Below are positions 1 through 64,000 of a stretch of DNA of 64,000 nucleotides, one piece after another; position 1 is the first letter of the stretch, and each line of letters begins with the position of its first letter. A model generated the notes under the pieces. That model saw only the letters and a list, made by a program, of their open reading frames with translations. It searched no databases and was not told the DNA's origin. The translations under genes and the position numbers were made by a program. Origin of the DNA: a virus. The stretch lies in the IMG/VR virus record IMGVR_UViG_3300046492_000458, positions 1 to 64,000 of that record, one strand, 5' to 3'.

Positions 1-809
1 CCCCGCACTGGGATCCGGACCTGGCCGGGCGGGCGCTGGGGGATGAGGGGCTGTCGCTGGATGCGTGGTCGTCGTCGTCTGAGGATGGCGGGGAGCCGCA
101 GAAGGACCGTCTGGCGCGGGAGCGGGCTGCGAAGGCGGTGTGCGCCCGGTGTCCGATCGTGGACGCCTGCCGGGTGTACGCGAACGCGGAAACTGCGGAC
201 GGGAAGCTGACGGAGCCGGATGGGATCTGGGGCGGGGAGTTGGCTCTGGACCGTCATCGAACACTGATTGCCCGCCGTACGAACGCTCCGCTGCCTGCCC
301 GGAAGGATTTGGCGGAGGCGCGCACCGTACAGAAGCAGGCGGTGTTGGCGGCGTTGGCGCGGGAGACGGATGAGGAGCTGGTGGCGTACCGGGCGGGCAT
401 GGATGTCCGGACGGCGAACTGGAACCGGTCGGTGTTGTGCACGCTGCTGGGGTTGAACAAGGAGACTGCGACCCGGGAGCAGCTGCTGCAGGTGGCGGCC
501 GCGCATGATCTGCTGCCGCGCCGGTGCCGGATTGTTCCGGATGGCCAGTGGCCGGTGGCGGCGGCGCCGACGACGGACGGGGCCCGGCAGCGCCGGATTG
601 CCGCGGGCGCCCCGCAGCAGCTGGTGCTCAACCTGTGGCCGGGCCAGCCGGCCCCGCGTCGCGGGCCGAGGCCGCGCCACACCCCGTCCGCCGCGGCCTC
701 GGCGCGCCGCTCCCCGCGTCCGAGACTCCGCCTCGTCGCTCCGTACGTCGCTGAGCCGCTTCCCTTCCCCACCACCATCCGTACCGCACGCCTGGAGGCC
801 GCAGCATGA
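1..809 (+). CDS. WhiB-family regulator, 5' end cut by the window
   Basis: The frame is open from base 3, so the start lies outside the window. The visible part carries a CxxCxxxxxC cluster (CARCPIVDAC, about residues 46-55 of the visible reading) and the turn GIWGG about 20 residues later. This is the hallmark of WhiB-like iron-sulfur DNA-binding regulators; the first of the four cysteines must lie upstream. The C-terminal 120 residues are longer than in a usual WhiB protein and are rich in Arg, Pro and Ala, with one short helical stretch ending in LLGLNKETATREQL that could be helix-turn-helix-like. It overlaps the next gene by ATGA. WhiB proteins are common on actinophages and plasmids. The family call is firm; target genes are unknown. 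Confidence 0.8.
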   Translation, partial: PHWDPDLAGRALGDEGLSLDAWSSSSEDGGEPQKDRLARERAAKAVCARCPIVDACRVYANAETADGKLTEPDGIWGGELALDRHRTLIARRTNAPLPARKDLAEARTVQKQAVLAALARETDEELVAYRAGMDVRTANWNRSVLCTLLGLNKETATREQLLQVAAAHDLLPRRCRIVPDGQWPVAAAPTTDGARQRRIAAGAPQQLVLNLWPGQPAPRRGPRPRHTPSAAASARRSPRPRLRLVAPYVAEPLPFPTTIRTARLEAAA

Positions 810-1246
810 GCCAGATCCCCACCCCGTCGTCTTCCGTCGCCTCCACCAGCTCGAGCGCCTCGGCCGCCGAGCCGCCGGCCGGGTCGGCGGTGGACTTCGT
901 GCTCGCCGGGCGGGCGGTGTCGACGGGCGCGCATATCGCGGGGCTGATCGCGGCCGCGCAGTTGGACACGGTGGGCACGCCGCGGAAGCTTCCGGCGGAC
1001 TTGTTCCCGGGGGTGGATCCGGCGGTGGTGCAGGAGATTTGGGATCGGGCGCTCGTGGTGGGGGTGCGGGCGGGCCAGTTGATGAACGCGCCGCGGTTCA
1101 ACCGGGACAAGCTGGCGCGTCTCCAGGGGCAGTTGACGGAGGCGGGGTTCCTGGCGATGGGCGGGATGGCGGGCCAGTCGCGGGTGGCGGCGGAGCGGGC
1201 CCCGGAGTGGCATCCCGCGGACGGCGAGGACGGCCGTGAGCACTGA
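806..1246 (+). CDS. Hypothetical protein, 146 aa
   Basis: ATG overlaps the stop of the WhiB-like gene (ATGA) and has a GGAGG about 6 bases upstream. A Ser-rich, probably disordered N-terminus (residues 1-27) precedes a helical domain (VDFVLAGRAVSTGAHIAGL..., residues 29-130). No cysteine cluster, signal peptide or catalytic motif is visible, and I do not recognise the family. Overlap with the WhiB-like gene implies co-translation. Confidence 0.65.
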   Translation: MSQIPTPSSSVASTSSSASAAEPPAGSAVDFVLAGRAVSTGAHIAGLIAAAQLDTVGTPRKLPADLFPGVDPAVVQEIWDRALVVGVRAGQLMNAPRFNRDKLARLQGQLTEAGFLAMGGMAGQSRVAAERAPEWHPADGEDGREH

Positions 1247-1459
1247 ACTCCGGTGTGACAAGTCGGACTAGAGACACGGGGGAAGAGGGTGGGACAAGTG
1301 GCAGGGTCAACGGATAGGCTGCGCCTAGCACCAGACGACCATTCAGGTCAGGCTGGGGCTCACAAGACAATAGGAACGGCCCCGCAGTATCCCGGTGCAG
1401 CGAACACCAGGTGCGGGGCCGGGCCGACACCACGACCCTTGCGAAGTAGAGGTGCCGAC

Positions 1460-1576
1460 ATGGCAGAGCGTACCCGGACACCCGGGCAATCAGACAGTCG
1501 AACCCCGGACACCGCCGTGAAGATCACACCGGCGATGCAGACGGGTCCTGTCACTTCAACCCACAGCACACGATGA
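1460..1576 (+). CDS. Small hypothetical protein, 38 aa
   Basis: A short reading frame beginning MAERTRTPGQ, with GAGG about 7 bases before the ATG; its stop overlaps the ATG of the next gene. The overlap and the ribosome-binding site are the only support. A longer in-frame GTG at 1289 exists, but the extension looks like non-coding sequence. It may simply be a translated leader of the gene at 1573. Confidence 0.35.
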   Translation: MAERTRTPGQSDSRTPDTAVKITPAMQTGPVTSTHSTR

Positions 1577-2247: not shown

Positions 2248-2476
2248 CGCTTTCTGGGCGGGAGATTCCTCGACCGCCTGGCCGCGTCCCGGACTGGTGC
2301 GCCAAACACCTCCGGGCCTCTGCGGCCCTCGTACCACGGATCAGCACGCCAATGCCGATCTAAGGCCCGCCGGGCGCCAACCCGAGCGAGCGGACTAACA
2401 GGTTCTCCACGAACCACTTCACCGCCACCGAGGGCTTTTGCGTTCCCGCAAGGCCATCAACGAAGGCAGGTACATA

Positions 2477-3958
2477 GTGCAGCACCGCACCCCTTCTTGT
2501 CAGCTTGGCAACTCCACCGTGGGCGATTCGCGAGGAATCTCCCCCCGGTCGGGTGGCACCCCGTGCACCGAATCCACCCCGGACACGCACGCCCCTACTG
2601 TCGAAATCGAACGCGCGTACGACTACAGTGCAGGTCAGACCGGTCGTGGCGCGCGCCTGCTGGTGACCGCAGCTAGCCAGTGGCTGCACGCCACGACCGG
2701 CCGCATCGCCACATGCGCCCACTCCTGGATGCAAGCCGTCCACTGGGTCGCCGGGAGCGGCCTCTACACGCCCTCCCGCAGCCACGGCCCGCGGTGGGGT
2801 GCAACGACCCTCGCCATCGCGCAGGAGATCGCCGCGCTGAAGGAGTGCCGGCCCGGGATCGACTACCTGATGCGGAAGCTGAAGGCGTCGGAGCGCACCA
2901 TCCAGTACCACCTGTCGATGCTCCGCGAGGCCGGGCTGCTCGTGTACCGGGTGAAGGGCACCCGGCTCTCCTCGCAGCCGAACCAGGCGTCCGTGTTCGA
3001 GCGGGTCATCCCCCTCGAGTTCGATGAGGCGCTCGGGATCCGCACCGTCGGTGCAGGGGTGCAACGGCGCCCGGTCGGGGCCGCCCCGGAGCACCGGAGC
3101 CTGCTCGGGAAGCTCGCGAAGAAGGCCGCCCGGAAGACCCGCCGCCGCCCCCGTCGGACCCCTGTTTCGGGTCGGGCGCGTTGCACCCCAATGGAGGGTG
3201 GTACCTCAGCGTCTTCTTCTGCGGCTAACACTTACTCCCCCCCTGAGAGCAAGCTCGCAAGCGGGGAAGCGAAGTCCCCCACCCAGAAGAAGTCCAACCG
3301 CGGGCCGAAGAAGCTGAACAAGACCGGCCGCCGCTACCAGCTCGCCCGCGAACTCATCCAGCTCGTGCCGTGGCTCAAGGACGCATCCATCCCCCGGATC
3401 GCCTGGATCATCCGCCACGCCGCTGATGCCGGGTGGACGGCCCTCGAGGTCCAGGCCATCGCAGAGCAGGAACGCCCGATCCTCGCCGCCCAGGTGCGCC
3501 GCCCGTCCGGGCTGCTCGCCGACCGACTCGGCAACCTCCACCTGCTGTACACCACCCCCGAGCGCCGCAAGACCGCCGTACTGGCGTGGCAGGAGTCCCG
3601 CGTGCAGGAGCAGGCCCGGCACACCGGCTACGACGAAGTCCACGGCGGCGACCGGCGCCCGGCCAGCGTGAGCGTGCAGGATCTCGTCCGGGAAGCGTTC
3701 CGCCGCAACCAGGAGATCGCCGCGGGCCCGGTCCCCGCCGGGGAGTGCTGGGACATCACTGAGGACACCCGCACCGAACTCGAGGACCTGGACCGCGAAC
3801 TGATCAAGGCGGTCCGCGCCGAAGCATCCGCCGACCTGTCGCTGATCACCAGTGCCCTCGCCAACGGCATGACCGAGCGGGACGCCCGCCGCCTGTACAC
3901 CAACTGGCTCGTCGACCAGGCCCTCGCCGCCGACCGCCGACTCACCCCCGCCTTCTGA
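2477..3958 (+). CDS. Winged-helix replication-initiator-like protein
   Basis: About 493 aa. GTG 2477 is chosen because AGGCAGG lies 6 bases upstream; a TTG at 2438 would extend it but has poor spacing. Around residues 85-175 (SGLYTPSRSHGPRWGATTL, then an ERTIQYHLSMLREAGLL helix-turn-wing) is a winged-helix DNA-binding domain of the type found in actinobacterial plasmid replication/HTH proteins. A basic Lys/Arg-rich linker follows (about 215-300), then a second helical domain containing RYQLARELIQLVPWL and a C-terminal Asp/Glu-rich helix. It is followed by a small gene and a DciA-like gene, which supports a role in replication start. It could instead be a transcriptional regulator; the family call is from memory. 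Confidence 0.6.
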   Translation: MQHRTPSCQLGNSTVGDSRGISPRSGGTPCTESTPDTHAPTVEIERAYDYSAGQTGRGARLLVTAASQWLHATTGRIATCAHSWMQAVHWVAGSGLYTPSRSHGPRWGATTLAIAQEIAALKECRPGIDYLMRKLKASERTIQYHLSMLREAGLLVYRVKGTRLSSQPNQASVFERVIPLEFDEALGIRTVGAGVQRRPVGAAPEHRSLLGKLAKKAARKTRRRPRRTPVSGRARCTPMEGGTSASSSAANTYSPPESKLASGEAKSPTQKKSNRGPKKLNKTGRRYQLARELIQLVPWLKDASIPRIAWIIRHAADAGWTALEVQAIAEQERPILAAQVRRPSGLLADRLGNLHLLYTTPERRKTAVLAWQESRVQEQARHTGYDEVHGGDRRPASVSVQDLVREAFRRNQEIAAGPVPAGECWDITEDTRTELEDLDRELIKAVRAEASADLSLITSALANGMTERDARRLYTNWLVDQALAADRRLTPAF

Positions 3959-3969: not shown

Positions 3970-4206
3970 ATGGCACCCGCCGACGAACTTCGTGCCGCAG
4001 CCCAGACCCTCCGCGATGTCGCCCCTGAGATCACCGGTCGCCTGGCTGGACTCGCCGACCCGGTCGCCGAATGGCTGGAGCACGAAGCGGAGATCGATCG
4101 CACCGCCCACCTCTACACCGAGCGCGAACCGTGCGCCTGGTGCGGAAGCCCGGCCAACCATCACGCCCTCACCGTGGCCCGCGCCCTCTTGGGAGGCCAG
4201 TCGTGA
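3970..4206 (+). CDS. Small zinc-knuckle-like protein, 78 aa
   Basis: ATG with a good AGGAG 6 bases upstream; its stop overlaps the GTG of the DciA-like gene. It is mainly acidic helix (EITGRLAGLADPVAEWLEHEAEID) followed by CAWCG...NHH, a possible CxxC/His metal site near the C-terminus. The position between a Rep-like and a DciA-like gene suggests a part in the same replication operon; the function itself is not recognisable. Confidence 0.65.
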   Translation: MAPADELRAAAQTLRDVAPEITGRLAGLADPVAEWLEHEAEIDRTAHLYTEREPCAWCGSPANHHALTVARALLGGQS

Positions 4207-4994
4207 CCGACACTCCGCAGTTGTCCGGCCGGGACCTCGCCCGGCAGGCCCTCGCCGCCTACAAGAGCACCGCCCGAACCGCACCCACCAACACCCCGAG
4301 CCGACCCAAGACGCGGCGCACCGCCCGTACCGGCTCCGGCCGCGACCCCATCAGCCTGGCCTCCGCCATCGCTGGTCTCGGTGCCGACATCCACCTCGAA
4401 GCGGGCGTCGCCGGCGGCAGCGTCATCGACCAGTGGCCCACCCTGTGCCCGCAGTACGACGGCTTGGTGCAGCCCATCCACTACGACGAGAACACCGGCC
4501 GCCTGGACCTCCGCCCGGGCAGCCACTCCTACGCCGCGCAACTCCGCCTCCTCGGCGGCCAGCTCGCCAAGCAGATCAACGACAAGATGGGCCGCCCGGT
4601 CGTCCGGACGATCCGCGTGCTGCCGGTCGGGAACGTCGCCACGGCAGAACAGCAGGCCGCGGCACCGGAGTCAGCCGCCCCCGAGGCGCCCGTGCGGACC
4701 CGGGAGACCGCATCGGCCGGCTACCGGCGCACCCTCGAAGCACACCAGGCGGCCCAGGCCGACGGCGAGCCCACCAACCCGTACGTCGTCGACGCCATCG
4801 AGCGCCAAGACCGGATGCTGGCCGACCCCCACAACCGGGAACCGGAGACCGCGTTCACCGATGCCGTCGCCGAGCTCGAGCGGCTCACCGCCCCGACCGT
4901 GGATCGCGCCGAGATGATCCGCCGGGCCGCGATCGCCCGCAAGCGCGGCGGCAGCGATGCGGCACCGGTACGCCGCGCCTTCGACGTCGCATGA
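4203..4994 (+). CDS. DciA-like (DUF721) protein, possible replicative helicase loader
   Basis: 263 aa from a GTG overlapping the previous stop. Residues about 5-20 (GRDLARQALAAYKSTAR) and 45-140 match the layout of actinobacterial DUF721/DciA proteins: RDP.SLASAI, then VIDQWPTLCPQYDGLVQPIHYD, then L.L.PGSHSYAAQLRLLGGQLAKQIND..GRPVVRTIRVL. In bacteria lacking DnaC/DnaI, DciA helps load the DnaB helicase. The C-terminal 110 residues are an acidic, probably disordered tail not usual in chromosomal DciA. Placement two genes after a Rep-like gene fits a role in recruiting host helicase to the plasmid or phage origin. Family call is from sequence recall; activity is inferred. Confidence 0.72.
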   Translation: MTDTPQLSGRDLARQALAAYKSTARTAPTNTPSRPKTRRTARTGSGRDPISLASAIAGLGADIHLEAGVAGGSVIDQWPTLCPQYDGLVQPIHYDENTGRLDLRPGSHSYAAQLRLLGGQLAKQINDKMGRPVVRTIRVLPVGNVATAEQQAAAPESAAPEAPVRTRETASAGYRRTLEAHQAAQADGEPTNPYVVDAIERQDRMLADPHNREPETAFTDAVAELERLTAPTVDRAEMIRRAAIARKRGGSDAAPVRRAFDVA

Positions 4995-5660: not shown

Positions 5661-5813
5661 ATGCCGCAGACCGCCACCCCGCCCCACGTTTCCGCCTCGC
5701 CTCGGCAGGTCGGGCCAGCGCCCGCGTGGGAGCGGCACAAGCTGTTCCAGGAGCCCGCCTACACGACGGTCCTCGAGGAGCCCGCGGAGGACGAAGAAGA
5801 CGGGGAGTGGTGA
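5661..5813 (+). CDS. Small acidic hypothetical protein, 50 aa
   Basis: ATG with GAGGAG 6 bases upstream. Pro/Thr-rich start and very acidic end (EEPAEDEEDGEW). Its last codons run into the first parS-like palindrome, so it is the last gene of the rightward operon before the partition locus. No family recognised. Confidence 0.45.
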   Translation: MPQTATPPHVSASPRQVGPAPAWERHKLFQEPAYTTVLEEPAEDEEDGEW

Positions 5814-5876
5814 CCACGTGGTCACCACCTTTGGGTCAGACAGACGACAAGGTGGTGACCACGTGGTCACCACCTT
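5807..5876. repeat. Two long perfect palindromes, putative parS centromere
   Basis: Two copies of GGTGACCACGTGGTCACC extended by further palindromic bases: the first spans 5807-5828 (22 bp) and the second 5849-5876 (28 bp, flanked by AAGGT/ACCTT). Their centres are 45 bp apart, close to four helical turns. There is no loop, so these are protein-binding DNA sites rather than terminators. They sit directly beyond the 3' end of the parB-like gene, which points to a centromere bound by that protein. Confidence 0.75.
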
Positions 5877-5900: not shown

Positions 5901-6824
5901 CTAGGCCTGCTCCTCCAGGTTCCCGGCCAGCTCTTCCAGCAGTTCACGCACCGCGCTCTCGAGTTCCTCCGCCTCCCGACGCGCCCGGGCGAGGTCGGTC
6001 TCCGCCAGGGCGCGGATCCGTTCCACCGCCTTCAGTGACTCGCTCGGCGTGAGCACCTTCGGCCCCGTCTTCTTCTCCGCCTCCTGGGTGAGCTCCTTCG
6101 GCGGGCCGTAGCCGAGGAAGTTTGCGGCATCCCGCAGCGTCTTGTCGATGACGTTGCCGTGCCGGGCCGCCTCCAGCCACGTCTCCCGCACCGCCTCGGT
6201 GCCGTGCGTCTCGAGGATCGGCACCAGAATCCGCAGGGGGCGTTCCTTCAGCTCCTGGGTGGTGATGTCCTCGAGTGCCTGCGCCACCGGCATCACTCGG
6301 ATGATGTTGTTGGCCTGGTGCTTCTTGATGCCGAAGCGGGCCTCGGCGAGCTCCCCGAACGTGTCGTGTCCGGCGACCTTGTGCAGCTCCTCCACCTTCA
6401 TCGCCCGCAGCCGGAGCCCGAGCCCGATCAGTTTCTGCTGTTCGGCCCGTTCGTGGTTGGCGCGGGCCGCGTACTGCACGGCGAGGATGCCCCGCGCATA
6501 GAACTCCAGCCGGGTGGCCGGGTCGTCGCTGTCCGGCTCGGTGAAGTCCGGCATCGGCAGGTACCCGGTCGCCGCGGTCCTGACGGCCGGCACAGATTCC
6601 GTTCCCGCCGATTCCGTCTCCGCGGGCTCCGCTACGGCCAGAACGGCGGCCGGGGGTGCGGCAGGTGCCGGGACCTGCGCCACCACAGCCGCGGGCGCGG
6701 CATGCTGCTCGCGTAGCTTGCGCTGGCTGTCCTCCCACTGCCGCAGCTGGTCCTCGCGGGACTGGTCACCGCTTCCGCCGGAGCCGACGACCGGGATGAC
6801 GGGGGCGACCTTCTTCGAGCTCAC
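5901..6824 (-). CDS. parB: ParB-like centromere-binding protein
   Basis: 307 aa, GTG start overlapping the parA stop. The N-terminal 100 residues are Ala/Pro-rich and likely disordered. Residues about 105-215 are helical and contain TFGELAEARFGIKKHQANNIIRVMPVAQALEDI, a plausible helix-turn-helix. A C-terminal coiled coil follows (KAVERIRALAETDLARARREAEELESAV). It lacks the GERR box of chromosomal ParB, so it is the plasmid-type partner of ParA. The palindromes at 5807-5876 lie 25 bases beyond its stop. Identity rests mainly on operon position after parA and on the HTH plus coiled coil. Confidence 0.7.
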   Translation of the reverse strand: MSSKKVAPVIPVVGSGGSGDQSREDQLRQWEDSQRKLREQHAAPAAVVAQVPAPAAPPAAVLAVAEPAETESAGTESVPAVRTAATGYLPMPDFTEPDSDDPATRLEFYARGILAVQYAARANHERAEQQKLIGLGLRLRAMKVEELHKVAGHDTFGELAEARFGIKKHQANNIIRVMPVAQALEDITTQELKERPLRILVPILETHGTEAVRETWLEAARHGNVIDKTLRDAANFLGYGPPKELTQEAEKKTGPKVLTPSESLKAVERIRALAETDLARARREAEELESAVRELLEELAGNLEEQA

Positions 6825-7966
6825 GCCGCCAACTCCTTGGCCAGGGCGCGCATGACCTGCGCCTGACCGGAGTCAGGGGCGTGCTCGAGCAGCGGGATCT
6901 GGTAGTCGGATGCCTCGCGGCCCTCGATGGCGTCCTTCAGGGTGGCCAGCACACCGGGTGTGGTGAGCTCGCTCCACCCGTCGTAGAAGGCGCGGGTGAC
7001 AACGCCCTTGCGGGAGTCGTAGGCGTTCACGACGAACCCGAGCTGGTCGACGACCGCTCCGGTCATCCGGCTGTGGGTGTCGATCTGCTCGTTCAGCATC
7101 TCGTAGGCGTCGAACGAGGAACGGTCCGACCAGACGGGCATCAGGATTCCGGAGTGGTCGATCAGCTCGCCCGGGCGACGCTGGACGTAGTTGATGGCGA
7201 GGTCTATCGCCAGCCCCAGGTTCGGAGGGCCGTCCAGGACGATGACGTCGTAGGAGTCCTCGACGGGGGCGAGCGCGCGGGCCAGGCAGGTGTCGCGGCC
7301 GACCTGGAGGAGCGCCAGCTTGGCGTCCATCAGGAAGGCGTCCTTGCTCGCGGGCAGAACGTGGAGACGGCCGCCGAACCGTTCGTGGGGGAGCGCGACG
7401 AGGGAGCGGGCCAGGTGCTTGTCGGCCTCGCCGAGCATGTGCGTGAGGAGACTGTCGGACCCGGTGGGAAGGCCAGGGATCTGCAGGCGGCTGGTGAGGT
7501 GCCCTTGGGGGTCGTAGTCGACGAGGAGAACGCGCAGGCCGGCCTCCGCCATGGCCTGGGCGAGTCCGGAGGCCACGAACGTCTTGCCGACACCACCCTT
7601 CTGGTTGCCCACCAGGATCCGCTTCACGGGCTGGGCGACGAGGCGCTCGTCGGGGGATGGGTGGGCCTTCAGCCACAGGGTGATGGCCTGGGCCATGCCC
7701 TGGACCTTCGTCAGACTGCGGGAATCGCACTCGCTTGCGAACCGGTGCGGGCCCCCAGCGGGAAGGAACACGCCCCACGACTTCGATCCCCTGGTCTCGA
7801 TGTCCGGGGAGCCCGGGGTGTCGTACCAGAGACTGAGGGCGGAGGCGACGGCGTCCTGCATGTTCAGCCCGTGCTCGGCTGCCCTGATGCGCAGGTCACG
7901 GCGTAGCTCAGGAGTCAGGTTAACGAGCAACTTTTCGCGCGCTTCTTCGGCGCCTGGGTGGGTCAT
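6821..7966 (-). CDS. parA: ParA partition ATPase with an N-terminal DNA-binding-like extension
   Basis: 381 aa. The deviant Walker A motif GNQKGGVGKT is at about residues 118-127, followed by LLVDYDPQGHLT (Walker A' region) and VIVLDGPPNLGLA (Walker B). This is a ParA/Soj ATPase that segregates plasmids by interacting with ParB. The first 60 residues (LTPELRRDLRIRAAEHGLNMQDAVASALSLW) look like a ribbon-helix-helix or HicB-type element and could mediate autoregulation. ATG 7966 is preferred to a TTG at 7975. A TAATTT -10-like hexamer (7972-7977 on the complement) is so close to the ATG that the message may be leaderless. Confidence 0.93.
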   Translation of the reverse strand: MTHPGAEEAREKLLVNLTPELRRDLRIRAAEHGLNMQDAVASALSLWYDTPGSPDIETRGSKSWGVFLPAGGPHRFASECDSRSLTKVQGMAQAITLWLKAHPSPDERLVAQPVKRILVGNQKGGVGKTFVASGLAQAMAEAGLRVLLVDYDPQGHLTSRLQIPGLPTGSDSLLTHMLGEADKHLARSLVALPHERFGGRLHVLPASKDAFLMDAKLALLQVGRDTCLARALAPVEDSYDVIVLDGPPNLGLAIDLAINYVQRRPGELIDHSGILMPVWSDRSSFDAYEMLNEQIDTHSRMTGAVVDQLGFVVNAYDSRKGVVTRAFYDGWSELTTPGVLATLKDAIEGREASDYQIPLLEHAPDSGQAQVMRALAKELAA

Positions 7967-8691
7967 GGCGAGCAAATTACCAGGCGATCATGTTTTGTGA
8001 GGCGCACGTGGCGCGGCCCGACCGCCTGCGCCACCCGAACGGGCCTGCCAGGCAAGGGAGATGGCTCGGGAACACTTTGCCCGCGAGGTAAAGAGCGGGG
8101 CCTCGTCATGCGCCGACCAGATTCGGTCGAATACGTGCCGGATGACGGGGTTTATCTGTCACCCACCTGAGTGATCCCTGTGCAAGCCCCTTCCCGGAGT
8201 GCATATATGCGCCTTGGGTGGGGGGTGCTGCCGGTCCCCACGGCCGGCGGCTGCACGGCCGGGGACAGCCCCTTGTGGATCGCAGCCCTCCGGGGGCGGC
8301 CCGGCCGCGCTGGGCACCCGGCCCGTACAGAAACCGGGGGAACGCATCTACCTGCGTGGGGAGTTCCCGGATTAGACTGCCGTCAACGAACGGGCATGCC
8401 CGGGAGGAACCGATCGGCCCCTCGAAGTGCCTGACCATTTGGCGCCCGCAGGGGCTGTTCCCGTATCTGGATGTAGCCTCTCCGTCACCCTCTGGCCAAA
8501 ACCGTATCGAATGCATGTCAGTAGGTGGTCAATACCCGGCAGTGTCTTACCGACCGCCTGGTATCGATGCCACAGTGACAAGTCCGAGCGTCTGGACTGG
8601 CAGCCGGACGTGCGGGGGGCCCGGGCGGAGCCGACACCGACCGGGCGTACGAGGACCCTTCCCACTTCTGCCGGAGGAGCGGAGACGCCCC
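7967..8691. other. Divergent intergenic region upstream of parA
   Basis: About 725 bases with no convincing gene. It contains the parA promoter region, a short AT-rich palindrome GCATATATGC near 8198, and an imperfect inverted repeat between about 8335 and 8371 (CCGGGGGAAC / GTTCCCGG) followed by a TAGACT -10-like hexamer near 8374. These could form a rightward regulated promoter for the gene at 8692. Nothing in it resembles an RNA gene. Confidence 0.4.
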
Positions 8692-42413: not shown

Positions 42414-42442
42414 TGAATCTCCCTCAGTATGGACGAACCCTG

Positions 42443-43864: not shown

Positions 43865-43907
43865 CCCACCCCGACCACCCGCCTGCACCACCCGGAAGGA
43901 GCCCGCC

Positions 43908-49393: not shown

Positions 49394-49398
49394 CCCCC

Positions 49399-49779
49399 AT
49401 GGCAGACACCCGCTACGAACAGTTCCTCCGGCTCGTCACCGACTTCGGCAACGAGATCATGGCCGACGCCGAAGCCCTCCGCGGCTGGTCCCAGTTCATC
49501 GACGGCGAATCCCGCGACACCGCCCACGTCGCCGACATGATCTCCGCGAAGCGCGTCGACAAGGACACCGTCGGCGAAACCCAGGAACTCGCGAAGATCA
49601 TGCTCGGGGTGTCCGAGCAGGCCATCCAATACGCCTCCGCCGGGGACACCACCACCCGCCTCGCCCGAGCCAGCCACGACGAAGCCGTCAACAGCCACCA
49701 GGCCATCAGCGAGCAGGTCAACGCCTCACCCGCAGTCGGCATCCACGACGTCGACAACGACTGGCTCACCCAGGAATAG
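49399..49779 (+). CDS. Helical companion protein of the transfer cluster, 126 aa
   Basis: ATG with AGGAAG upstream. Helical throughout: YEQFLRLVTDFGNEIMADAEALRGWSQFIDGESRDTAHVADMISAKRVDKDTVGETQELAKIMLGVSEQAIQYA. Positioned between the low-complexity protein and TraB; small helical proteins at this position recur in Streptomyces transfer clusters. Exact role unknown. Confidence 0.65.
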   Translation: MADTRYEQFLRLVTDFGNEIMADAEALRGWSQFIDGESRDTAHVADMISAKRVDKDTVGETQELAKIMLGVSEQAIQYASAGDTTTRLARASHDEAVNSHQAISEQVNASPAVGIHDVDNDWLTQE

Positions 49780-49828
49780 CCCCGCTACGCCCGCCCCCGA
49801 ACCCGCCGCACCCTCGAAGGAATCCCCG

Positions 49829-52120: not shown

Positions 52121-52122
52121 CC

Positions 52123-52472
52123 GGCCCGGGGGGAAGCGCCTCAGACAAACCCCCGCCCGTACGCCACCATCAGAACTGCACGGCCCGGAGCTCCGGAAGC
52201 GTCCCCCCGCCCCAAGCACCGCAAGCCGCGCAACACCCAGCTCGGACCAGCCCACCCCAGGCCCCCGAGCACAACGGCCCCGCCAGTCATCCCCAGACCG
52301 GCGGGGCCGACCCATACCCGCACACGGGACCGCCCGGGGGGAAGGCAGCTCAGACAAACCCCCCAACCTGCGACAGCATCAACACCAAGCCGAAGTGCTC
52401 CGGCCGCGTCCGCCCCAAGCACCCAGGCACACCACGGCCCCGCCCGCCCAACTTCCCCGGGCAGCGGGGCCG
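52123..52472. repeat. Tandem duplicated structured non-coding unit behind traB
   Basis: Two imperfect copies, 52123-52308 and 52331-52472. Each begins GCCCGGGGGGAAG, then CTCAGACAAACCCCC (G-run pairing with C-run), contains CCGCCCCAAGCACC and ends with a GGCCCCG.../...CGGGGCC hairpin. No gene lies across it. It directly follows traB, the position of clt in several Streptomyces plasmids, so it may be the TraB recognition locus; two copies of a structured RNA are an alternative. Confidence 0.7.
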
Positions 52473-52495
52473 GCCCGCAGACGAGGGAGCCGAAC

Positions 52496-53203
52496 GTGCA
52501 CGACCAGCCCACCGCGCTCGAGGAATACGACTGGCCGACCTGCAGCACTCCCCAATGCGGGCGGCAACTCTGGATCACCGAAACCGGACGCCAGGCCTGC
52601 CGCCCCTGCGAAGACGCCACCAGCCGCCGCATCACCGAACTCCCCGCCCTGTTCCGGCAGCTCAACACCACAGCCGCCCTCATGCGCGGCGCCAGCCGGA
52701 TAGGCGGCGGCAACTCCGGCAGCAAAACCCCGCCCATCCCGCCCCGGCTCGAAGTTCTCGCCCTCGTCGGCCCCGGCGGCGTCGCAGCCCGACTCCGGGA
52801 CATCGAGGACTCGTGGCGCAACGCGCTCGACTGGCCCATCGCTCCGTGGCGCGGCAGCCCGGCGCAGGCCGTCCCCGCCCACGCCAAGTTCCTTGCCGAC
52901 AACCTGCTGTGGGCATGCGGGTCCTACGAATCCGTCGGCCAGGACATCGACGACCTCCGTAAACTCCACGGCGAATGCACCGCCATCGTCAACAACGAAC
53001 GCCGACCCGGACGCGTCGCCATCGGCCTATGCCCCACCCGCACCAACGACACCCTCTGCGGACAGCCACTCACCGCCACAGCCGCCTCCCACCGCGTCCG
53101 ATGCGGCACCTGCGGAAGCCGCTGGGAAACCCTCGGAGAGTGGCGCCAGCTTCGCACCGCACAAGAGCAAGTGCTCGCTGAAACGGCAGGAGTCGCGGCG
53201 TGA
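52496..53203 (+). CDS. Hypothetical protein with terminal zinc ribbons, 235 aa
   Basis: GTG with GAGGGAG 6-7 bases upstream. N-terminal WPTCSTPQCGRQLWITETGRQACRPCEDATSRRI (C...C...CxxC) and C-terminal GLCPTRTNDTLCGQPLTATAASHRVRCGTCGSRWETLGEW are paired zinc ribbons. The middle is helical (LEVLALVGPGGVAARLRDIEDSWRNALDWPI). Proteins with this layout are common next to Streptomyces transfer genes. Function unknown. Confidence 0.65.
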   Translation: MHDQPTALEEYDWPTCSTPQCGRQLWITETGRQACRPCEDATSRRITELPALFRQLNTTAALMRGASRIGGGNSGSKTPPIPPRLEVLALVGPGGVAARLRDIEDSWRNALDWPIAPWRGSPAQAVPAHAKFLADNLLWACGSYESVGQDIDDLRKLHGECTAIVNNERRPGRVAIGLCPTRTNDTLCGQPLTATAASHRVRCGTCGSRWETLGEWRQLRTAQEQVLAETAGVAA

Positions 53204-53400
53204 CCGGCCGCTCCCTCCCGGTGCTGCAGCCCACACTCCGCATGTGGCAGATCCTCCGCCACTGCTACCGCGGCGAAGACCCCGTCGCCGTCCTCGGACG
53301 CGGCCTCGACATGCTCGCCCAAGCCGACGGCCACCTCCACCCCGGCGGCAGCATCAAAACCGGGATCGGCGGCAGGCCCACAGTCAGAAGGCAGCCGTGA
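53200..53400 (+). CDS. Small hypothetical protein, 66 aa
   Basis: GTG overlapping the previous stop. SLPVLQPTLRMWQILRHCYRGEDPVAVLGRGLDMLAQADGHLHPGG: helix-turn-helix-like small protein. The stop overlaps the GTG of the DUF6221 gene. Unknown. Confidence 0.5.
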   Translation: MTGRSLPVLQPTLRMWQILRHCYRGEDPVAVLGRGLDMLAQADGHLHPGGSIKTGIGGRPTVRRQP

Positions 53401-53762
53401 GCGAGATCGCCGACTTCCTGCGGGCCCGGTACACGGAAGATGGCGCAGCGATCCGCGCCAACTGGAATGCCAGCGGCATCACTTCGCAGCGGTATCAGGG
53501 CACCCCTATCGACCCGACGCGGCTCCTTGCCGACCTCGACGCCAAGCTCGCCCTCATCGACGACCTGCTCGCCGAGGGCCATCAGACGGTCGATGACGAG
53601 TGGTACACCTGCCCCGCCGTCGTCGACCAGCAACTGGGTTTCGAGTCGGGACGTGGCGGCCCCTGTGGCTGCGGACGTGACAGGCGCGTCAACCGGCGAC
53701 TCGCCATCCTTGCCCTGCCCTACGCCGGATACCCCGACTACCGGAACGAGTGGGCGCCGTGA
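53397..53762 (+). CDS. DUF6221 family protein, 121 aa
   Basis: GTG overlapping the previous stop (GTGA). EIADFLRARYTEDGAAIRANW, DPTRLLADLDAKLALIDDLLAEGH and the ending RRLAILALPYAGYPDYRNEWAP match DUF6221, a common small Streptomyces family of unknown role. It carries CGCGRDRRV before the last segment. Confidence 0.78.
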   Translation: MSEIADFLRARYTEDGAAIRANWNASGITSQRYQGTPIDPTRLLADLDAKLALIDDLLAEGHQTVDDEWYTCPAVVDQQLGFESGRGGPCGCGRDRRVNRRLAILALPYAGYPDYRNEWAP

Positions 53763-54235: not shown

Positions 54236-54409
54236 TCTCCCTGCGGTGGGCGCCGCAGGGACGGGCCTCGAAGCGCACCGCGCTCGGCCCACGTCCGCCC
54301 GGCCCTTGGGAAGGGGACCGGGCGGACACAAACCCCGAACGTCCCGCCGCCCAATCGGACCCCCGCCGAGGGCGGCGGGACTCGCCAACACCCCCACACC
54401 AGGAGAACC

Positions 54410-54649
54410 GTGCGCCGCCCCCTCATCACCGCCCTGTTCGTCGCCGCGTTCCTCGTCGGACCCGTCGCCTGCACCCACGACAACCCCAGCCCCGCACCCA
54501 GCACCACGACGGCAACACCGAGCAAGCCGCCGAGCACGGCGCCATCCACGACACTCCAGCCGACCCCGCCCGTGTCGCCTTCGCCCACGCCCACGCCGAC
54601 CACTGCACCGAGCGCGCCGAACCCCACACCCAGCGCCACCACGCCATAG
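54410..54649 (+). CDS. Small lipoprotein with Pro/Thr-rich tail, 79 aa
   Basis: GTG with AGGAG 5-6 bases upstream. RRPLITALFVAAFLVGPVAC is a signal peptide ending at a Cys that fits a lipobox loosely, so the protein would be lipid-anchored at the outer membrane face. The mature part (STTTATPSKPPSTAPSTTLQ...) is a disordered, probably glycosylated stalk. It lies just before the secreted GH16 gene, and the pair may act together at the surface. Confidence 0.65.
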   Translation: MRRPLITALFVAAFLVGPVACTHDNPSPAPSTTTATPSKPPSTAPSTTLQPTPPVSPSPTPTPTTAPSAPNPTPSATTP

Positions 54650-54662
54650 ACCTGGGGGTGCC

Positions 54663-55487
54663 ATGCGCCGCATCCTCACAACCGCCGCACTCGCCGCCGG
54701 CCTCCTGCTCGCCAGCCTCACCGCACCCACCGCGGCCGGCAGCACCCCGACCTGGCACCTACGCTTCACCGACGGATTCAACACCCCCGTCGCCAAGGGC
54801 CGTTTCACGGACTGCAATCACGCCGTGGACACCCCGAAGGCGTACTGCGGCGGCCTCACCGGCACCGTCCGCGCCAGCTGGTGGGCGTACCCCGCGGGCT
54901 GGCCCGACACCGCCACCCAACGCCACTATCCGGTCGGCGGCTACTACGACCCCGCCACCACCCTGTGGATCTCCGGTGGACAGCTCCACATCCGCATGTG
55001 GCGCGGCGCCTCCGGCCCCGTCCACTCCGCGACCGTCGTCCCCAAGGCCCTGATGGGCCAGCGGTACGGCCGGTACGAGGAACGATGGCGCGTCTCCAAG
55101 GCCGCGACCGGCTACAAGAGCGCGCACCTGCTCTGGCCCGTGACGGACAGCGCCTGCCCCAACTGCGAAATCGACTTCCCCGAAGGTAACTGGACGGGCA
55201 GCGTCAACGGCTACGCCCACCACCTCAACAGCATCGGCGGCGACCAGGACGCCTACGACGCCCGCGCAAAGTGGACCGACTGGCACACCACGGTGATCAC
55301 CTGGCAGCCCGGCAGCGTCACCCTGGCCATCGACGGGCGCACGGCCGGCCACAGCACCACGGCCGTCCCCAACACCGCCATGAGCTGGGACATCCAGAAC
55401 GAGACCGCCCTCGAAGGGCCAGCCCCGGCACCGAACACCAGCGCCCAGATGGACATCGAGTACGTTAAGGGCTGGTCGTGGAGCTGA
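54663..55487 (+). CDS. Secreted GH16-type beta-glucanase-like enzyme, 274 aa
   Basis: ATG 54663. Residues 1-25 (RRILTTAALAAGLLLASLTAPTAAG) are a Sec signal peptide. The catalytic centre EIDFPE at residues 169-174 matches the family-16 motif with nucleophile and acid/base glutamates. WHLRFTDGFNTPV, GRYEERWRVSKA, SAHLLWPVTDSACPNCEIDFPEGNW and WHTTVITWQPGSVTLAIDGR are typical flanks. Family 16 cleaves beta-1,3/1,4 glucans, agars and related polymers. On a phage-plasmid it could open host or fungal polysaccharides or alter the lysogen's surface. Substrate unknown. Confidence 0.85.
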   Translation: MRRILTTAALAAGLLLASLTAPTAAGSTPTWHLRFTDGFNTPVAKGRFTDCNHAVDTPKAYCGGLTGTVRASWWAYPAGWPDTATQRHYPVGGYYDPATTLWISGGQLHIRMWRGASGPVHSATVVPKALMGQRYGRYEERWRVSKAATGYKSAHLLWPVTDSACPNCEIDFPEGNWTGSVNGYAHHLNSIGGDQDAYDARAKWTDWHTTVITWQPGSVTLAIDGRTAGHSTTAVPNTAMSWDIQNETALEGPAPAPNTSAQMDIEYVKGWSWS

Positions 55488-55686: not shown

Positions 55687-55689
55687 CCG

Positions 55690-59150: not shown

Positions 59151-59843
59151 GTGAGCAACTCCCGTCTCTGCCGCGGCTGTCAGCAGCCGTTCCCTATCGG
59201 TGCGCGCGAGCGCAACCCGCGTGTTTGGTGCAGCGACTCGTGCCGCCGGTGGGCGGGTCTTCATCCGGGCGAAGTACGATCCACGCAGCGAACCTGCATG
59301 GGGTGTAAGGCCGACATCTCCCATCGGCCGATGCAAGCCAAGTGGTGCTCGAAGCGCTGCTTCGAGACCGTCAAGGGGACGCGGCGAAGTACGCCACTGC
59401 TGGGCGCCATCTGCGCTCTCGCGGAGTGCGGAGCCCCTTTCCAGCCGAAGCAGGAAGGGCAGCGCTGCTGCTCGGAGAAGCACGGCAAGCTCCAATACAA
59501 CCGCGAGTCGCGCGCCGACGGACGTCAGAAGTCCTCGGTGTGGAACGACAAGCGCCGCGACAACTACCACCGCCGCCGGGCCTTGAAGAAGGCCACGGCA
59601 ACTGGCGAACCGGTGCTGTTCGCGGAGATAGCGGAGCGGGACCGCTGGCGTTGCTCCCTCTGTAAGAAGGTCGTGAATCCGGCGGTGAAGTGGCCGGACC
59701 CGAAGAGCCCGAGCCTGGATCACGTGGTGCCGCTCTCGAAGGGCGGCGCGCACGATCCCTCGAATGTCGCCTTGGCGCACCTGGGGTGCAACACGGCGAA
59801 GAACAACCGTGGCGGCGGCGAGCAACTGATGCTGATCGGCTAA
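59151..59843 (+). CDS. HNH endonuclease with zinc fingers, 230 aa
   Basis: GTG start. SRLCRGCQQPFP, WCSDSCRRW, CMGCKADISHRPMQAKWCSKRCFET and CALAECGAPFQPKQEGQRCCSEKH are four cysteine pairs (residues 5-120). The HNH core is SLDHVVPLSKGGAHDPSNVALAHLGCNTAKNNR near the C-terminus, with CSLCKK before it. Probably a free-standing homing-type or packaging endonuclease. Just upstream of the terminase genes. Confidence 0.85.
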   Translation: MSNSRLCRGCQQPFPIGARERNPRVWCSDSCRRWAGLHPGEVRSTQRTCMGCKADISHRPMQAKWCSKRCFETVKGTRRSTPLLGAICALAECGAPFQPKQEGQRCCSEKHGKLQYNRESRADGRQKSSVWNDKRRDNYHRRRALKKATATGEPVLFAEIAERDRWRCSLCKKVVNPAVKWPDPKSPSLDHVVPLSKGGAHDPSNVALAHLGCNTAKNNRGGGEQLMLIG

Positions 59844-60177: not shown

Positions 60178-60643
60178 CGGCGGTGCGCGTGCACGCTCCG
60201 GTCCTGCCCCTGACCCGACTGCGCTGCGGCGTGACCGGGATGCCGGCGAGTGGACGATCCTGCCTGCGGAGGGCCGACAGGGCGCAACGCCCGAGTGGCC
60301 GCTGACCGAGCAGACGATCCGTGAAGCCGACCTGTGGGGCGCCTTGTGGCGGAAGCCACAGGCGATCATGTGGGAGCGGTATGGCCAGGAGTTCGAGGTG
60401 GCGCTGTACGTGCGCCGCTTCTCCGAGGCCGAGTTGATGGACTCCCGGGTGAATCTGTCGACGCTAATCCGGCAGATGGCGGACTCGCTGGGTCTGACGA
60501 CGCCGGGGATGCGGGCGAACCGGTGGCGGATCGCGGTCGATGAGGTCGCGGAGCGCCGTGAGGGGGCCGGGAAGCAGCAGCCGGCCACGCGGCGCGCGGC
60601 TCGGGATCGTTTCAAGGTCGTGCCCGGTGACGGGGGCGAGTGA
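60170..60643 (+). CDS. Phage terminase small subunit
   Basis: 157 aa, start overlapping the previous gene. SGGARARSGPAPDPTALRRDRDAGEWTILPAEGRQGATPEWPLTEQTIREADLWGALWRKPQAIMWERYGQEFEVALYVRRFSEAELMDSRVNLSTLIRQMADSLGLTTPGMRANRWRI is the usual Streptomyces phage small-terminase pattern. It recognises the packaging site and hands DNA to the large subunit, whose gene overlaps its end. Confidence 0.85.
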   Translation: MPSGGARARSGPAPDPTALRRDRDAGEWTILPAEGRQGATPEWPLTEQTIREADLWGALWRKPQAIMWERYGQEFEVALYVRRFSEAELMDSRVNLSTLIRQMADSLGLTTPGMRANRWRIAVDEVAERREGAGKQQPATRRAARDRFKVVPGDGGE

Positions 60644-62264
60644 GCAGGTCGTCCAGTGGCCCACGCTCGGCTTTCTGATCGCGGACTGGGTTGAGGCGCA
60701 CTGCGTCATCCCGGACGGGTTCTCTGCTGGTGAGCCGTATGTTCTGACGGACGAGATGCTGTGGTTCTTCCTGAACCACTACCGGGTGAAGCCCGGGGCG
60801 ACGCGCGAGCGCTCGATGTTGTCGCCAGCGTCGGCGTTCCATTTCCGGCGTAGCCAGCTGGTCCGTCCGCAGAAGTGGGGCAAGGGACCGTTGACTGCCG
60901 CGCAGGTCTGCGTGGAGGGTGTCGGGCCTGCCGTGTTCGCCGGTTGGGCGGCTGGCGGCGAGGTCTACGACTGCCGGGTTCACGGCTGCGGCTGTGGCTG
61001 GGTGTTCGAGTACGAGCCGGGCGATCCGATGGGTATGCCGTGGCCGACGCCGCTGATTCAGATCACGGCGTTCTCGGAGGAGCAGACCGACAACATTTAC
61101 GGCGCCCTCAGGCCGATGATCGACAAGGGTCCGTTGTCGGAGCTGATTCCGAAGACGGGCGAGGAGTTCATCCGCCTTCCGGGTGGCGGCCGCGTCGACA
61201 CGGTGACGTCGTCGGCCCAGTCTCGCCTCGGCCAGCGCGTGACGTTCGTGCCTCAGGACGAGACTGGCATCTGGACGACTGAGAACAAGATGCAGAAGGT
61301 TGCCGATACGCAGCGGCGTGGCCTGGCGGGTATGGGTGGCCGGTCGACGGAGACGACGAACGGCTGGGACCCGTCGGAGAACAGCGTGGCGCAGCGGTCG
61401 TTCGAGGCGAAGGTCCAGGACATCTTCCGGGACTTTCGCAAGGCGCCGGCCGATCTGAACTACGCCAAGAAGACGGACCGTCGGAAGATCCATAAGGCGG
61501 TGTACGGCGACTCCTGGTGGGTCGACCTCGACGCGATCGAGGCCGAGGCCGCGGAGTTGCTGGAGCGTGACCAGGCGCAGGCGGAGCGGTTCTTCGGGAA
61601 CCGGATCACGGCCGGTACCGGTACATGGCTGGCCCGGGATCGTTGGGATCTGCGGGCGGTACCCCGTGAAGTCCCGGACGGTACGCCTGTTGTCCTCGGC
61701 TTCGACGGCTCGGACATCGACGACTGGACCGGCATCCGCGCCGAGACGCTGGACGGCTATCAGTTCACACCGGTGTACAGCTCGCTGGAACTGCCGACTA
61801 TCTGGGATCCAGCCGAGTGGGGCGGTCAGACGCCGCGGCTTGAGGTAGATGCGGCGGTGGATGAACTGATGCGTCGCTATCGGGTGGTGCGCATGTACTG
61901 CGATCCGCCGTACTGGCCAACCGAGGTCGATACCTGGGCGGAGCGGTACGGCGAGAAGCGCGTGGTCCGCTGGTACACGCACCGGGATGTTCAGACGCAT
62001 GCGGCCTGCGAGCGCCTGTTGACGGACGTGACAAAGGCCGACAGCGGATTCACGCACGACGGTTGCGAAGACACATCGGCGCACGTGGGGCACGCGCGGA
62101 GGGCGGCCCGCACCGCTGGCCGCTACGTGCTCCGGAAGGCCGCGCCCCATCAAAAGATCGACATGGCGATGGTGTCCATCCTCGCCCACGAGGCGGCGGG
62201 CGACGCAATCGCAGCTGGCCAGGCCCGGCCGAAGGTTTCCCGGAAGACGACTGTGATGCGCTGA
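60627..62264 (+). CDS. Phage terminase large subunit
   Basis: 545 aa from GTG 60627, overlapping the small subunit by 17 bases. RSQLVRPQKWGKGPLTAAQV (about 76-95) is the Walker A region, VTFVPQDETGIWTTENKMQKV (about 205-225) the Walker B and coupling region, and VVLGFDGSDIDDWTGI (about 354-370) with MYCDPPYW the nuclease centre. ATP-driven packaging and cutting of phage DNA is the known role. It starts the head-gene order terminase, portal, minor head. Confidence 0.94.
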   Translation: MTGASEQVVQWPTLGFLIADWVEAHCVIPDGFSAGEPYVLTDEMLWFFLNHYRVKPGATRERSMLSPASAFHFRRSQLVRPQKWGKGPLTAAQVCVEGVGPAVFAGWAAGGEVYDCRVHGCGCGWVFEYEPGDPMGMPWPTPLIQITAFSEEQTDNIYGALRPMIDKGPLSELIPKTGEEFIRLPGGGRVDTVTSSAQSRLGQRVTFVPQDETGIWTTENKMQKVADTQRRGLAGMGGRSTETTNGWDPSENSVAQRSFEAKVQDIFRDFRKAPADLNYAKKTDRRKIHKAVYGDSWWVDLDAIEAEAAELLERDQAQAERFFGNRITAGTGTWLARDRWDLRAVPREVPDGTPVVLGFDGSDIDDWTGIRAETLDGYQFTPVYSSLELPTIWDPAEWGGQTPRLEVDAAVDELMRRYRVVRMYCDPPYWPTEVDTWAERYGEKRVVRWYTHRDVQTHAACERLLTDVTKADSGFTHDGCEDTSAHVGHARRAARTAGRYVLRKAAPHQKIDMAMVSILAHEAAGDAIAAGQARPKVSRKTTVMR

Positions 62265-62282
62265 CGATGACGGGGGTGACCT

Positions 62283-63668
62283 GTGGCCCTCGACCTCGAG
62301 CCGGATGCCTGGCTGAAGCGGCTGATTGCGGCGCACGACAACGACCTGCCGCAGCTGCGGTTGATGGACAGCTACTACGAGGGCACGCAGCCTCTGTCGT
62401 ATCTGGCGCCGGAGATCCAGTCGGAGCTGTCGGACCGGATGCGGCAGCTGGTCATCAACTGGCCGCAGCTGGTCGTCGATGCGCTGGATGAGCGGCTGGA
62501 CGTCGAGGGTTTCCGGTACGCGGACTCGGAGACGACGGCCGAGGATCTGTGGTCGGTGTGGCAGGCCTCCGACATGGACGAGGGCAGTCAGCAGGCCCAC
62601 GTTGACGCGCTGGCGCTGAAGCGCTCCTATGTGATCATCGGTGCGAACGAGACCGACGAGTCGACGCCGATCATCACGGCCGAGTCCGCGCTGGAAGTCT
62701 TCGCCGAGCGGGATCCGCGGACGCGTCAGGTGATGGCGGCGATCAAGCGGTGGGATGAGCCCGCGGCGGCCGGGTCCGCTCCGGTGAAGTGGGCGACGCT
62801 GTATCTACCGAAGAAGCGGTGCACGTTCGAGCAGCAGAAGGGCGTCTGGGTCGAAGTCGACCGGGACGAGCACAACGTGGGCCAGGTGCTGGTGGTACCG
62901 CTGGCGAACCGGCCGCGGCTTCGGCATCTGGACGGCACGTCTGAGCTGCGTTCGGTGATTCCGATCTCGGACGCGGCATGCAAGATCGCCTCGGACATGA
63001 TGGTGTCTGCGGAGTATCACGCGATGCCGCGCCGGTGGGCGACGGGCATGTCCCGGGATGATTTCGCCGACGAGAACGGGCAGCCGCTCGGCGCAATGTC
63101 GTCACTGGCGGGCCGTCTGTGGGTGAACGAGGGCGAGAGCGTCAAGTTCGGCCAGTTCCCCGAGGCGCAGCTCTCGAACTTCCACGAGACGATCAACGTT
63201 CTTGCCCGGCTGGTGGCCGCCCTGACAGGCCTGCCTCCCGCGTTCCTCGGCCTGGCCACCGACCAGCCGCCGTCGGCGGATGCGATCCGTGCGTCGGAGG
63301 CCCGCCTGGTGAAGCGTGCGGAACGCAGGCAGCGGGCGTTCGGTGAGGCGTGGGAGAGGGTGATGAGGCTCGTTCTGCTCGTGCGGGACGGCGACTTGGA
63401 CCCGCGGACCCGCAAGCTGGAGACGGTCTGGCGGGACCCGGCGACGCCGACCTACGCCCAGAAGGCGGACGCGGTCGTCAAGCTGCACACCAGCGGCATT
63501 CTGCCGACGGAGCAGGCCTGGGAGGACCTCGGCTACTCGGCGGTGCAGCGGGACCGGATGCGGGGCATGCAGGATGAAGCCCTGACCCGTATGACCGCGA
63601 TGGATCTACAGCAGCTGTCTACGGCCCAGCCGGAGCCGCAGCCCTTCGAGGCCCCTCCGGGAGGCTGA
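62283..63668 (+). CDS. Phage portal protein (SPP1 gp6-like)
   Basis: 461 aa, GTG start. RLIAAHDNDLPQLRLMDSYYEGTQPLSYLAPEIQSELSDRMRQLVINWPQLVVDALDERLDVEGFRYAD is the SPP1-gp6 family opening; the C-terminus has LARLVAALTGLPPAFLGLATDQPPSADAIRASEARLVKRAERRQRAFGEAWERVMRLVLLVRDG, typical of portals. It forms the dodecamer through which DNA enters the capsid, and it follows terminase as expected for a siphovirus. Confidence 0.94.
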   Translation: MALDLEPDAWLKRLIAAHDNDLPQLRLMDSYYEGTQPLSYLAPEIQSELSDRMRQLVINWPQLVVDALDERLDVEGFRYADSETTAEDLWSVWQASDMDEGSQQAHVDALALKRSYVIIGANETDESTPIITAESALEVFAERDPRTRQVMAAIKRWDEPAAAGSAPVKWATLYLPKKRCTFEQQKGVWVEVDRDEHNVGQVLVVPLANRPRLRHLDGTSELRSVIPISDAACKIASDMMVSAEYHAMPRRWATGMSRDDFADENGQPLGAMSSLAGRLWVNEGESVKFGQFPEAQLSNFHETINVLARLVAALTGLPPAFLGLATDQPPSADAIRASEARLVKRAERRQRAFGEAWERVMRLVLLVRDGDLDPRTRKLETVWRDPATPTYAQKADAVVKLHTSGILPTEQAWEDLGYSAVQRDRMRGMQDEALTRMTAMDLQQLSTAQPEPQPFEAPPGG

Positions 63669-63669
63669 C

Positions 63670-64000
63670 GTGGCCGTTGTGACGCAGGCGCACCAGGAGG
63701 TCGCCGACGCCTACGGGCGGGCCCAGCAGCGGGCTGTCATTCAGACGACGGTCACGCTCGAGCGGCTGTGGAAGGAACTCGCGGCCACGGACCTTTCGCG
63801 GTCCTGGTTGGGAGGCTTGGGTGCGGCGATGGTCCGGGCTGTTTCCGTCGGCCAGCTGGTCGCGGCATCGACGGGTCAGCCGTACATCGAGGCGATGGTC
63901 CGGATGGACGGGCTGTCGAGCGACTACCTGGAGCAGGCGGCGCGTGTGGATGCCCGGTCGTTTTCGGGTGTCGCTGCGGACGGCCGGACGCTGGACTCGC
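63670..64000 (+). CDS. Minor head/maturation protein, 3' end cut by the window
   Basis: GTG 63670 one base after the portal stop. VAVVTQAHQEVADAYGRAQQRAVIQTTVTLERLWKELAATDLSRSWLGGLGAAMVRAVSVGQLVAASTGQPYIEAMV is the opening of the minor-head or capsid-protease-associated proteins that follow portals in actinophages. The frame stays open to the window edge. Domain assignment is by position and helical pattern. Confidence 0.7.
   Translation, partial: MAVVTQAHQEVADAYGRAQQRAVIQTTVTLERLWKELAATDLSRSWLGGLGAAMVRAVSVGQLVAASTGQPYIEAMVRMDGLSSDYLEQAARVDARSFSGVAADGRTLDS

Follow-up and report, generated by a model that had tools for sequence, protein, structure and literature searches.

Gene content of the window

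Our study analysed the first 64,000 bases (the window) of the 65,644-bp IMG/VR virus record IMGVR_UViG_3300046492_000458, a sequence from soil, in which plasmid replication and partition genes were found together with phage virion genes on one replicon, the combination that defines a phage-plasmid, alongside a Streptomyces-type transfer cluster. The sequence-only reading had placed parAB, rep, a DUF2637-to-TraB cluster and terminase–portal genes on this one segment, and all of these were recovered by family matches, with parB assigned by position and with weak matches for Rep and TraB. It had also proposed a phage-plasmid of the pZL12 kind with a Streptomyces transfer cluster, and this is borne out by a syntenic backbone shared with pSLE1-type plasmids. 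The pZL12 study reportedly described a large Streptomyces plasmid with replication, par, tra and phage particle genes, and with both a plasmid and a lytic phage cycle.

The probable replication initiator is a Rep-like helix-turn-helix protein (2438–3958, + strand; weak PHROG matches to replication initiators, E 5e-4), the true start of which is probably further in and which shares 59–74% identity with genes of three plasmids. It is accompanied by a DciA-like helicase-loader protein (4071–4994, +; Pfam DciA, E 7.6e-6). The partition gene parA (6821–7975, −; AAA_31, E 2.7e-25) is 87–91% identical in two plasmids, and the gene directly downstream of it, in the parB position (5901–6824, −), is 72–73% identical in two plasmids. 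The product of the latter gave zero Pfam or NCBIfam matches and is assigned as ParB by position only; it may represent an undescribed ParB type.

The transfer cluster is flanked by a divergent GntR-type regulator (41304–42032, −), which occupies the same place in relatives. It comprises a DUF2637 membrane protein gene (44681–46324, +, with a predicted start; Pfam, E 1.1e-37), a DUF6197 gene (46399–46926, +, with a possible start at 46321; Pfam, E 3.8e-17), a gene whose product has no family match in Pfam, NCBIfam or PHROG but is syntenic in relatives (47627–49393, +), and a TraB-like FtsK-type DNA translocase with Walker A and B motifs and a C-terminal winged helix (49829–52120, +; NCBIfam plasmid_TraB, E 1.9e-6). 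A Walker A motif of the form G[VT]TGSGKGG and a downstream hydrophobic-DEA (Walker B) motif were present in all 21 homologous TraB rows aligned; NBC_01483 was excluded from this count and from the traB tree, as its translocase is not homologous. AlphaFold modelled the last 84 residues as a winged helix (predicted local distance difference test, pLDDT, 87.6), and the best Foldseek matches of this model were winged-helix regulators, none at E ≤0.001. A PDB sequence search with TraB returned nothing, and a search of 50,697 phage records returned zero TraB matches, so that pZL12 must lie outside that collection or be too distant from the query. In annotated relatives GntR is followed by small genes, by DUF2637 or its analogue and, after a few more genes, by traB and the virion genes; the traB cluster is present in plasmids whether or not they carry virion genes. 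At 48653–48674 the window and the near-identical metagenomic record G001 differ by 22 bp, probably through repeat copy number.

The virion block and its junction with the backbone

The transfer cluster meets the virion block at 52121–52496. Here DNA identity to G002, the nearest full-length relative (a 93,191-bp contig, NZ_KQ948479.1, of S. olivochromogenes DSM 40451), jumps from 70% (49090–52116) to 89% (52121–53442), and the gene at 52496–53203 is the first of a block common to temperate-phage relatives. The block includes an HNH endonuclease beside the terminase (59151–59843, +; Pfam HNH, E 7.4e-9), the terminase large subunit (TerL; 60540–62264, +; PHROG, E 8e-154), an SPP1-type portal protein (62283–63668, +; Pfam SPP1_portal, E 1.2e-50) and a head maturation protease (63670–64000, +, running to 64707 of the record; PHROG, E 2.2e-63), followed by a scaffold gene. 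Most of the protease and scaffold sequence falls in the final 1.6 kb of the record, past the end of the window, and the head genes together span 60.5–65.5 kb. A weak match to glycosyl hydrolase 16, just under the cut-off, was seen at 54246–55487; the protein is 89% identical in G002 and is possibly virion-associated.

From TerL onwards, the window genes gave zero blastp matches in three plasmid relatives and matches of only 29–41% in NBC_01369, and the pSLE1-type terminase/portal/capsid operon was not matched by the window. The whole virion block, beginning where traB ends, bears no relation to its counterpart in the pSLE1-type relatives, a point of gene content that the sequence-only reading had not reported.

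Relatives of the portal were found at 57 loci in IMG/VR, 20 of which were covered by the test for traB. Among the 21 portal-bearing records tested, traB was found in four: the window, the near-identical G001 and G013, and G002. Eleven of the 18 records other than the window, G001 and G013 carried the portal at 82–95% identity, and G002 was the only one of these with traB; ten (G003–G010, G014 and G015) had a portal at 82–93% but neither traB nor an AAA_31 ParA match. DUF2637 was above the cut-off only in G000 and G001 among the portal-bearing records tested. A pSLE1-type portal was present in 6 of 20 records searched (the traB-bearing G021–G025 and G027) and a PBSX terminase in one (G026), never together with a window-type portal.

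Extent of the element

The 65,644-bp record is linear and probably a fragment. The window ends map to positions 77,268 and 47,301 of G002, which implies that approximately 30 kb is absent and that the whole element would measure approximately 95.6 kb. The Phage_integrase and Resolvase profiles gave zero matches across the record, so that the earlier description of a segment without an integrase holds for these 65,644 bp. It does not extend to the element, as a Phage_integrase match was present in 18 of 27 related records (above the cut-off in 15) and the integrase of G002 (frame 69.3–70.5 kb after turning the contig to the window direction) falls within the ~30-kb gap. Since the record is a fragment and the integrase of its relative lies in the gap, the absence of an integrase is a property of the segment rather than of the element.

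Family membership and frequency

Megablast matches of the backbone were to Streptomyces plasmids throughout, many of 84–94 kb and pSLE1 among them, and the rep, dciA, par and tra genes are homologous and syntenic with those of pZL12/pSLE1-type phage-plasmids. Sixty-five of 91 conserved window open reading frames were common to G002, and 49, 41, 35 and 27 to four plasmids; G003, G005 and G007 shared only 17–18 of the 91, mostly from 52.5 kb onwards.

The sequence-only reading had called the triple combination rare. Searches with tblastn matched the pSLE1-type portal to 34 plasmid records, 33 with lengths of 84.8–94.1 kb, and TraB to 152. At least 23 records carried both traB and a virion gene, this being the count within the best 60 of the 152 traB records, and they comprised 19 with a pSLE1-type portal, three with a PBSX-type terminase and one with an SPP1-type portal. 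The combination is therefore that of a sequenced family and not a rarity.

Mosaic structure and probable exchange of virion genes

When turned to the window direction, G002 matched phage-plasmids at 1–31.8 kb and 65.6–93 kb, and one contiguous block at approximately 32.7–65 kb matched temperate phages (TerL 97%, capsid 92% and tape measure 82% identity). G002 shares the virion block and most of the window backbone, but differs from the window in traB (56–57%), Rep (39%) and in having parAB and TerL of other types. The window Rep was missing from G003, G007 and the two genomes with a putative chromosomal prophage described below.

A portal search of a genome collection returned five loci, namely the G002 contig, a 2.41-Mb contig of Streptomyces sp. 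NBC_01549 (93% identity), a 0.53-Mb contig of S. natalensis (83%) and two loci at 33%. On the 2.41-Mb and 0.53-Mb contigs, genes for TerL, portal, protease, scaffold and capsid follow one another in the head-gene order seen in the window, and we read these two loci as probable integrated prophages. Neither traB nor parA was present in the S. natalensis record (G009) or in other long relatives. The best named phage for the portal was Streptomyces phage Kromp (58.8%), which has the same head-gene order as the window. Taken together, the alignments show a rep–dciA–par and traB backbone that gives way, immediately past the end of traB, to a virion block seen elsewhere in temperate phages without these plasmid functions, putative chromosomal prophages among them.

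Exchange was also apparent within the block. The terminases of the window (60540–62264) and of G002 (42313–43932 after turning) are only ~31–32% alike inside virion blocks that are otherwise 88–95% identical; the window terminase is 90% identical to that of the S. natalensis prophage and the G002 terminase 96% identical to that of the NBC_01549 prophage. Judged by these identities, the terminase gene itself is exchanged between the window and G002 lineages.

A maximum-likelihood traB tree of 22 rows, in which L068 carried no virion label, required five changes among four virion types. Shuffled labels needed as many, which indicates little association between virion type and traB. The window and G002, which share a virion type, occupied separate, well-supported places. 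Furthermore, the traB cluster DNA of NBC_01435 and NBC_01369 (NZ_CP109494.1 and NZ_CP109578.1) is 87–91% identical while their portal types differ, which suggests a recent exchange.

Candidate partition and transfer sites

Just beyond parB lie two identical 22-bp palindromes, GTGGTGACCACGTGGTCACCAC, at 5807–5828 and 5852–5873 (+), 45 bp apart, and no such pair occurred in 100 shuffles. CP108843 has identical sites and spacing and NBC_01483 has shorter variants. A palindrome of the same half-sites was found just beyond parB in all eight further IMG/VR loci with this parB, six with two pattern-fitting palindromes and two with one together with an imperfect or half site. We propose the double palindrome as a parS candidate, so that the ParABS set of the window consists of a parA identified by family match, a parB by position only and the palindrome pair beside it.

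A hexamer scan of the whole record, with no location preset, placed the strongest 700-bp cluster at 45,901, where CTGGCA occurred 22 times against 0.45 expected (1e-28.9); the runner-up was a poly-C run (1e-11.1). The copies occupy 45931–46587, spanning the 3′ end of the DUF2637 gene and the start of the next gene, upstream of traB. They occur in both orientations (10 forward and 12 reverse) and in several frames, and 11 lie past the DUF2637 stop. For the octamer CACTGGCA, 9 of 12 copies fell within a 600-bp span at the array, and 20 simulated sequences gave at most five per such span. A first location test with octamers, which preceded the hexamer scan, had given a heterogeneous result (6 of 16 elements with p < 0.05; Fisher p 3.6e-5). 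With hexamers, the top cluster lay at the same place in 13 of 20 traB elements, each with another word (GGCTCA in four and CGCATC in three).

According to the relevant passages of PMC4170104, Streptomyces TraB assembles on the cis-acting locus of transfer (clt) via 8-bp repeats and moves double-stranded DNA. The parts of the open-licence literature covered by our search describe no clt for these large plasmids, and we regard the CTGGCA array as no more than a candidate clt. Three phages without traB had no hexamer cluster above 1e-10.2, and a non-phage plasmid of S. zaomyceticus carries an array at the same place, which speaks against a packaging site. In five elements without a large array, a different set was observed, in which GGGCGCA occurs four times with constant spacing (one copy in reverse, then +22, +70 and +80): L116 (5059–5145), L118, L119, L070 and NBC_01369. 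This set may be a second, compact form of transfer site or conserved coding sequence.

Other features

The window has a GC content of 65–71% and zero tRNA genes. It encodes a single-stranded DNA-binding protein (16520–17026, +; Pfam SSB, E 8e-25) and a WhiB-type regulator (14857–15561; E 8e-24), with a second, weak and partial WhiB match at 138–809; WhiB genes are annotated in several relatives. In the product of a DNA methyltransferase gene (37411–39042, −), two stretches match N6_N4_Mtase and residues 171–233 give a helix-turn-helix match; a defence-system search of ten proteins gave methyltransferase-type matches only, all from this gene.

Alternative explanations and proposed model

Two parts with different closest relatives on a linear, probably fragmentary record could arise if a pZL12-like plasmid contig had been misjoined to an unrelated phage contig at 52.1 kb, the chimera that the sequence-only reading had named as grounds for its own rejection. 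We consider such a misjoin very improbable. G001 matches 44,220–65,302 in two pieces (99.96% and 99.99%) with the junction inside 16.6 kb at 99.99%, G013 matches 48,542–65,265 at 100% in two overlapping stretches, these two derive from different metagenomes, and the isolate contig NZ_KQ948479.1 is arranged in the same way; recurrence of the junction in two other assemblies and in an isolate makes a false join unlikely. The element might instead be a remnant, a plasmid with captured phage head genes that forms no virions and moves by conjugation alone. The record lacks tail and lysis genes, and the relative pSAM1 is described, in the part of PMC11302927 that deals with it, as expressed yet with almost no packaged reads in one medium. 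This explanation is nevertheless unlikely, as every head gene seen is an open frame with high identity to genes of other phages and the full-length relative G002 has an unbroken terminase-to-tape-measure series. Less probable again is an ordinary phage-plasmid whose traB cluster has lost DNA transfer and serves another role, such as segregation. The divergence of TraB, far below the NCBIfam cut-off, would fit this, but Walker A and B are kept in every aligned row, plasmids retain the cluster whether or not they have virion genes, and pZL12 is cited, in the relevant section of PMC3583192, as depending for its transfer on a major tra gene together with adjacent genes.

For the array, there is a substantial possibility, falling a little short of even, that it is not a transfer site but serves the GntR regulator as an operator or arises from low-complexity coding. 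Nearly all the repeats in the plasmids of S. tubercidicus and S. europaeiscabiei share one strand and one frame, and an array was not the top cluster at that place in 7 of the 20 traB elements. The window array itself fits this explanation poorly, given its mixed orientations and frames, its continuation beyond the DUF2637 stop, and its use of the rare serine codon AGT (7 of 19 within the array vs 10 of 295 in nine other genes), as does the distribution across the S. zaomyceticus plasmid and the phages without traB.

Set beside these alternatives, our preferred reading is that the record covers 65.6 kb of a temperate Streptomyces phage-plasmid of approximately 95 kb, of the pZL12/pSLE1 kind but with a virion block from another siphophage lineage, and we hold this to be highly probable. 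Several results weigh against it or against the role given to the array. TraB scores 26.6 bits against an NCBIfam plasmid_TraB cut-off of 800, and the full-length AlphaFold model is poor (mean pLDDT 42). Capsid, tail and lysis genes lie outside the 65,644-bp fragment. The likeness to pZL12 was drawn from its description and via pSLE1. The traB tree fits a swap of virion genes and a swap of traB alike. Among the 13 elements with an array, two arrays are coding repeats and three are doubtful, with eight clear including the window, in addition to the seven elements noted above; moreover, the array word showed no simple agreement with the TraB winged-helix sequence across elements.

Under the phage-plasmid reading, the element in a lysogen would be replicated by Rep and maintained by ParA/ParB acting on the double palindrome. 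TraB, a predicted membrane-anchored FtsK-type motor, would bind the hexamer array, which lies within and just past the DUF2637 gene, and pump double-stranded DNA into the neighbouring hypha. On induction, the terminase would package DNA through the SPP1-type portal and virions would be released. Recombination with a resident phage or prophage would have exchanged the virion block as one unit. Transfer by virions or by the mycelial route, as suggested from sequence earlier, is plausible by analogy with pZL12. Tentatively, and with considerable doubt, we extend this to a conjugative plasmid chassis (rep, parABS, traB and its own transfer-site array) with interchangeable capsid–tail blocks drawn from chromosomal prophages, in which conjugation would keep the element moving during refitting. 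If this were true, the two transfer routes together would make capsid exchange possible and the array would provide these large plasmids with a predicted clt. The analysis points to a catalogued strain, S. olivochromogenes DSM 40451, that would allow both transfer routes to be compared for a single element; the short DNA array and the parS candidate are open to direct testing.

Comparison with known systems

Among the closest described systems are the S. leeuwenhoekii plasmid pSLE1 of 86 kb, the 90-kb pSAM1 from S. ambofaciens and CP108843 (S. chartreusis, 91.6 kb). As in the window, GntR is followed there by small genes, then by DUF2637 or its analogue, and then by traB, with traB identities of 46%, 70% and 81%, respectively. 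The virion block of all three differs from that of the window; the terminase and portal of pSLE1 are unrelated to those of the window, and its parAB differs too. The authors of pSLE1, in the part of their description covering these features (PMC4487206), report that it is highly homologous to and syntenic with pZL12 and that it carries two putative integrase genes. For theta plasmids such as pZL12, the description goes no further than a need for tra and adjacent genes (relevant section of PMC3583192).

A plasmid backbone with differing phage head and tail genes is likewise known from the Tritonibacter mobilis phage-plasmid A3R06, in whose group one head/tail set is common to an integrated prophage, according to the corresponding part of that paper (PMC10090143; Nat Commun 2023;14:2049). 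The A3R06 elements are of 40–50 kb and belong to Roseobacter, in contrast to the Streptomyces traB group of the window, and no word beginning 'conjugati-' occurs in the main text of that paper (PMC10090143). A review, in the passage devoted to this point, treats it as unknown whether decoupling of backbone and virion is peculiar to A3R06-related elements (PMC11652158). Backbones with exchanged phage genes are thus already known in Roseobacter, and phage-plasmids with conjugation genes have been known since pZL12. As far as the open-licence literature searched shows, virion exchange in a traB-bearing Streptomyces group, the same block in plasmid and putative chromosomal form, the parS candidate and the array are new. 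The Streptomyces traB group is a second, unrelated group in which a conserved plasmid and transfer part is combined with a varying virion part.

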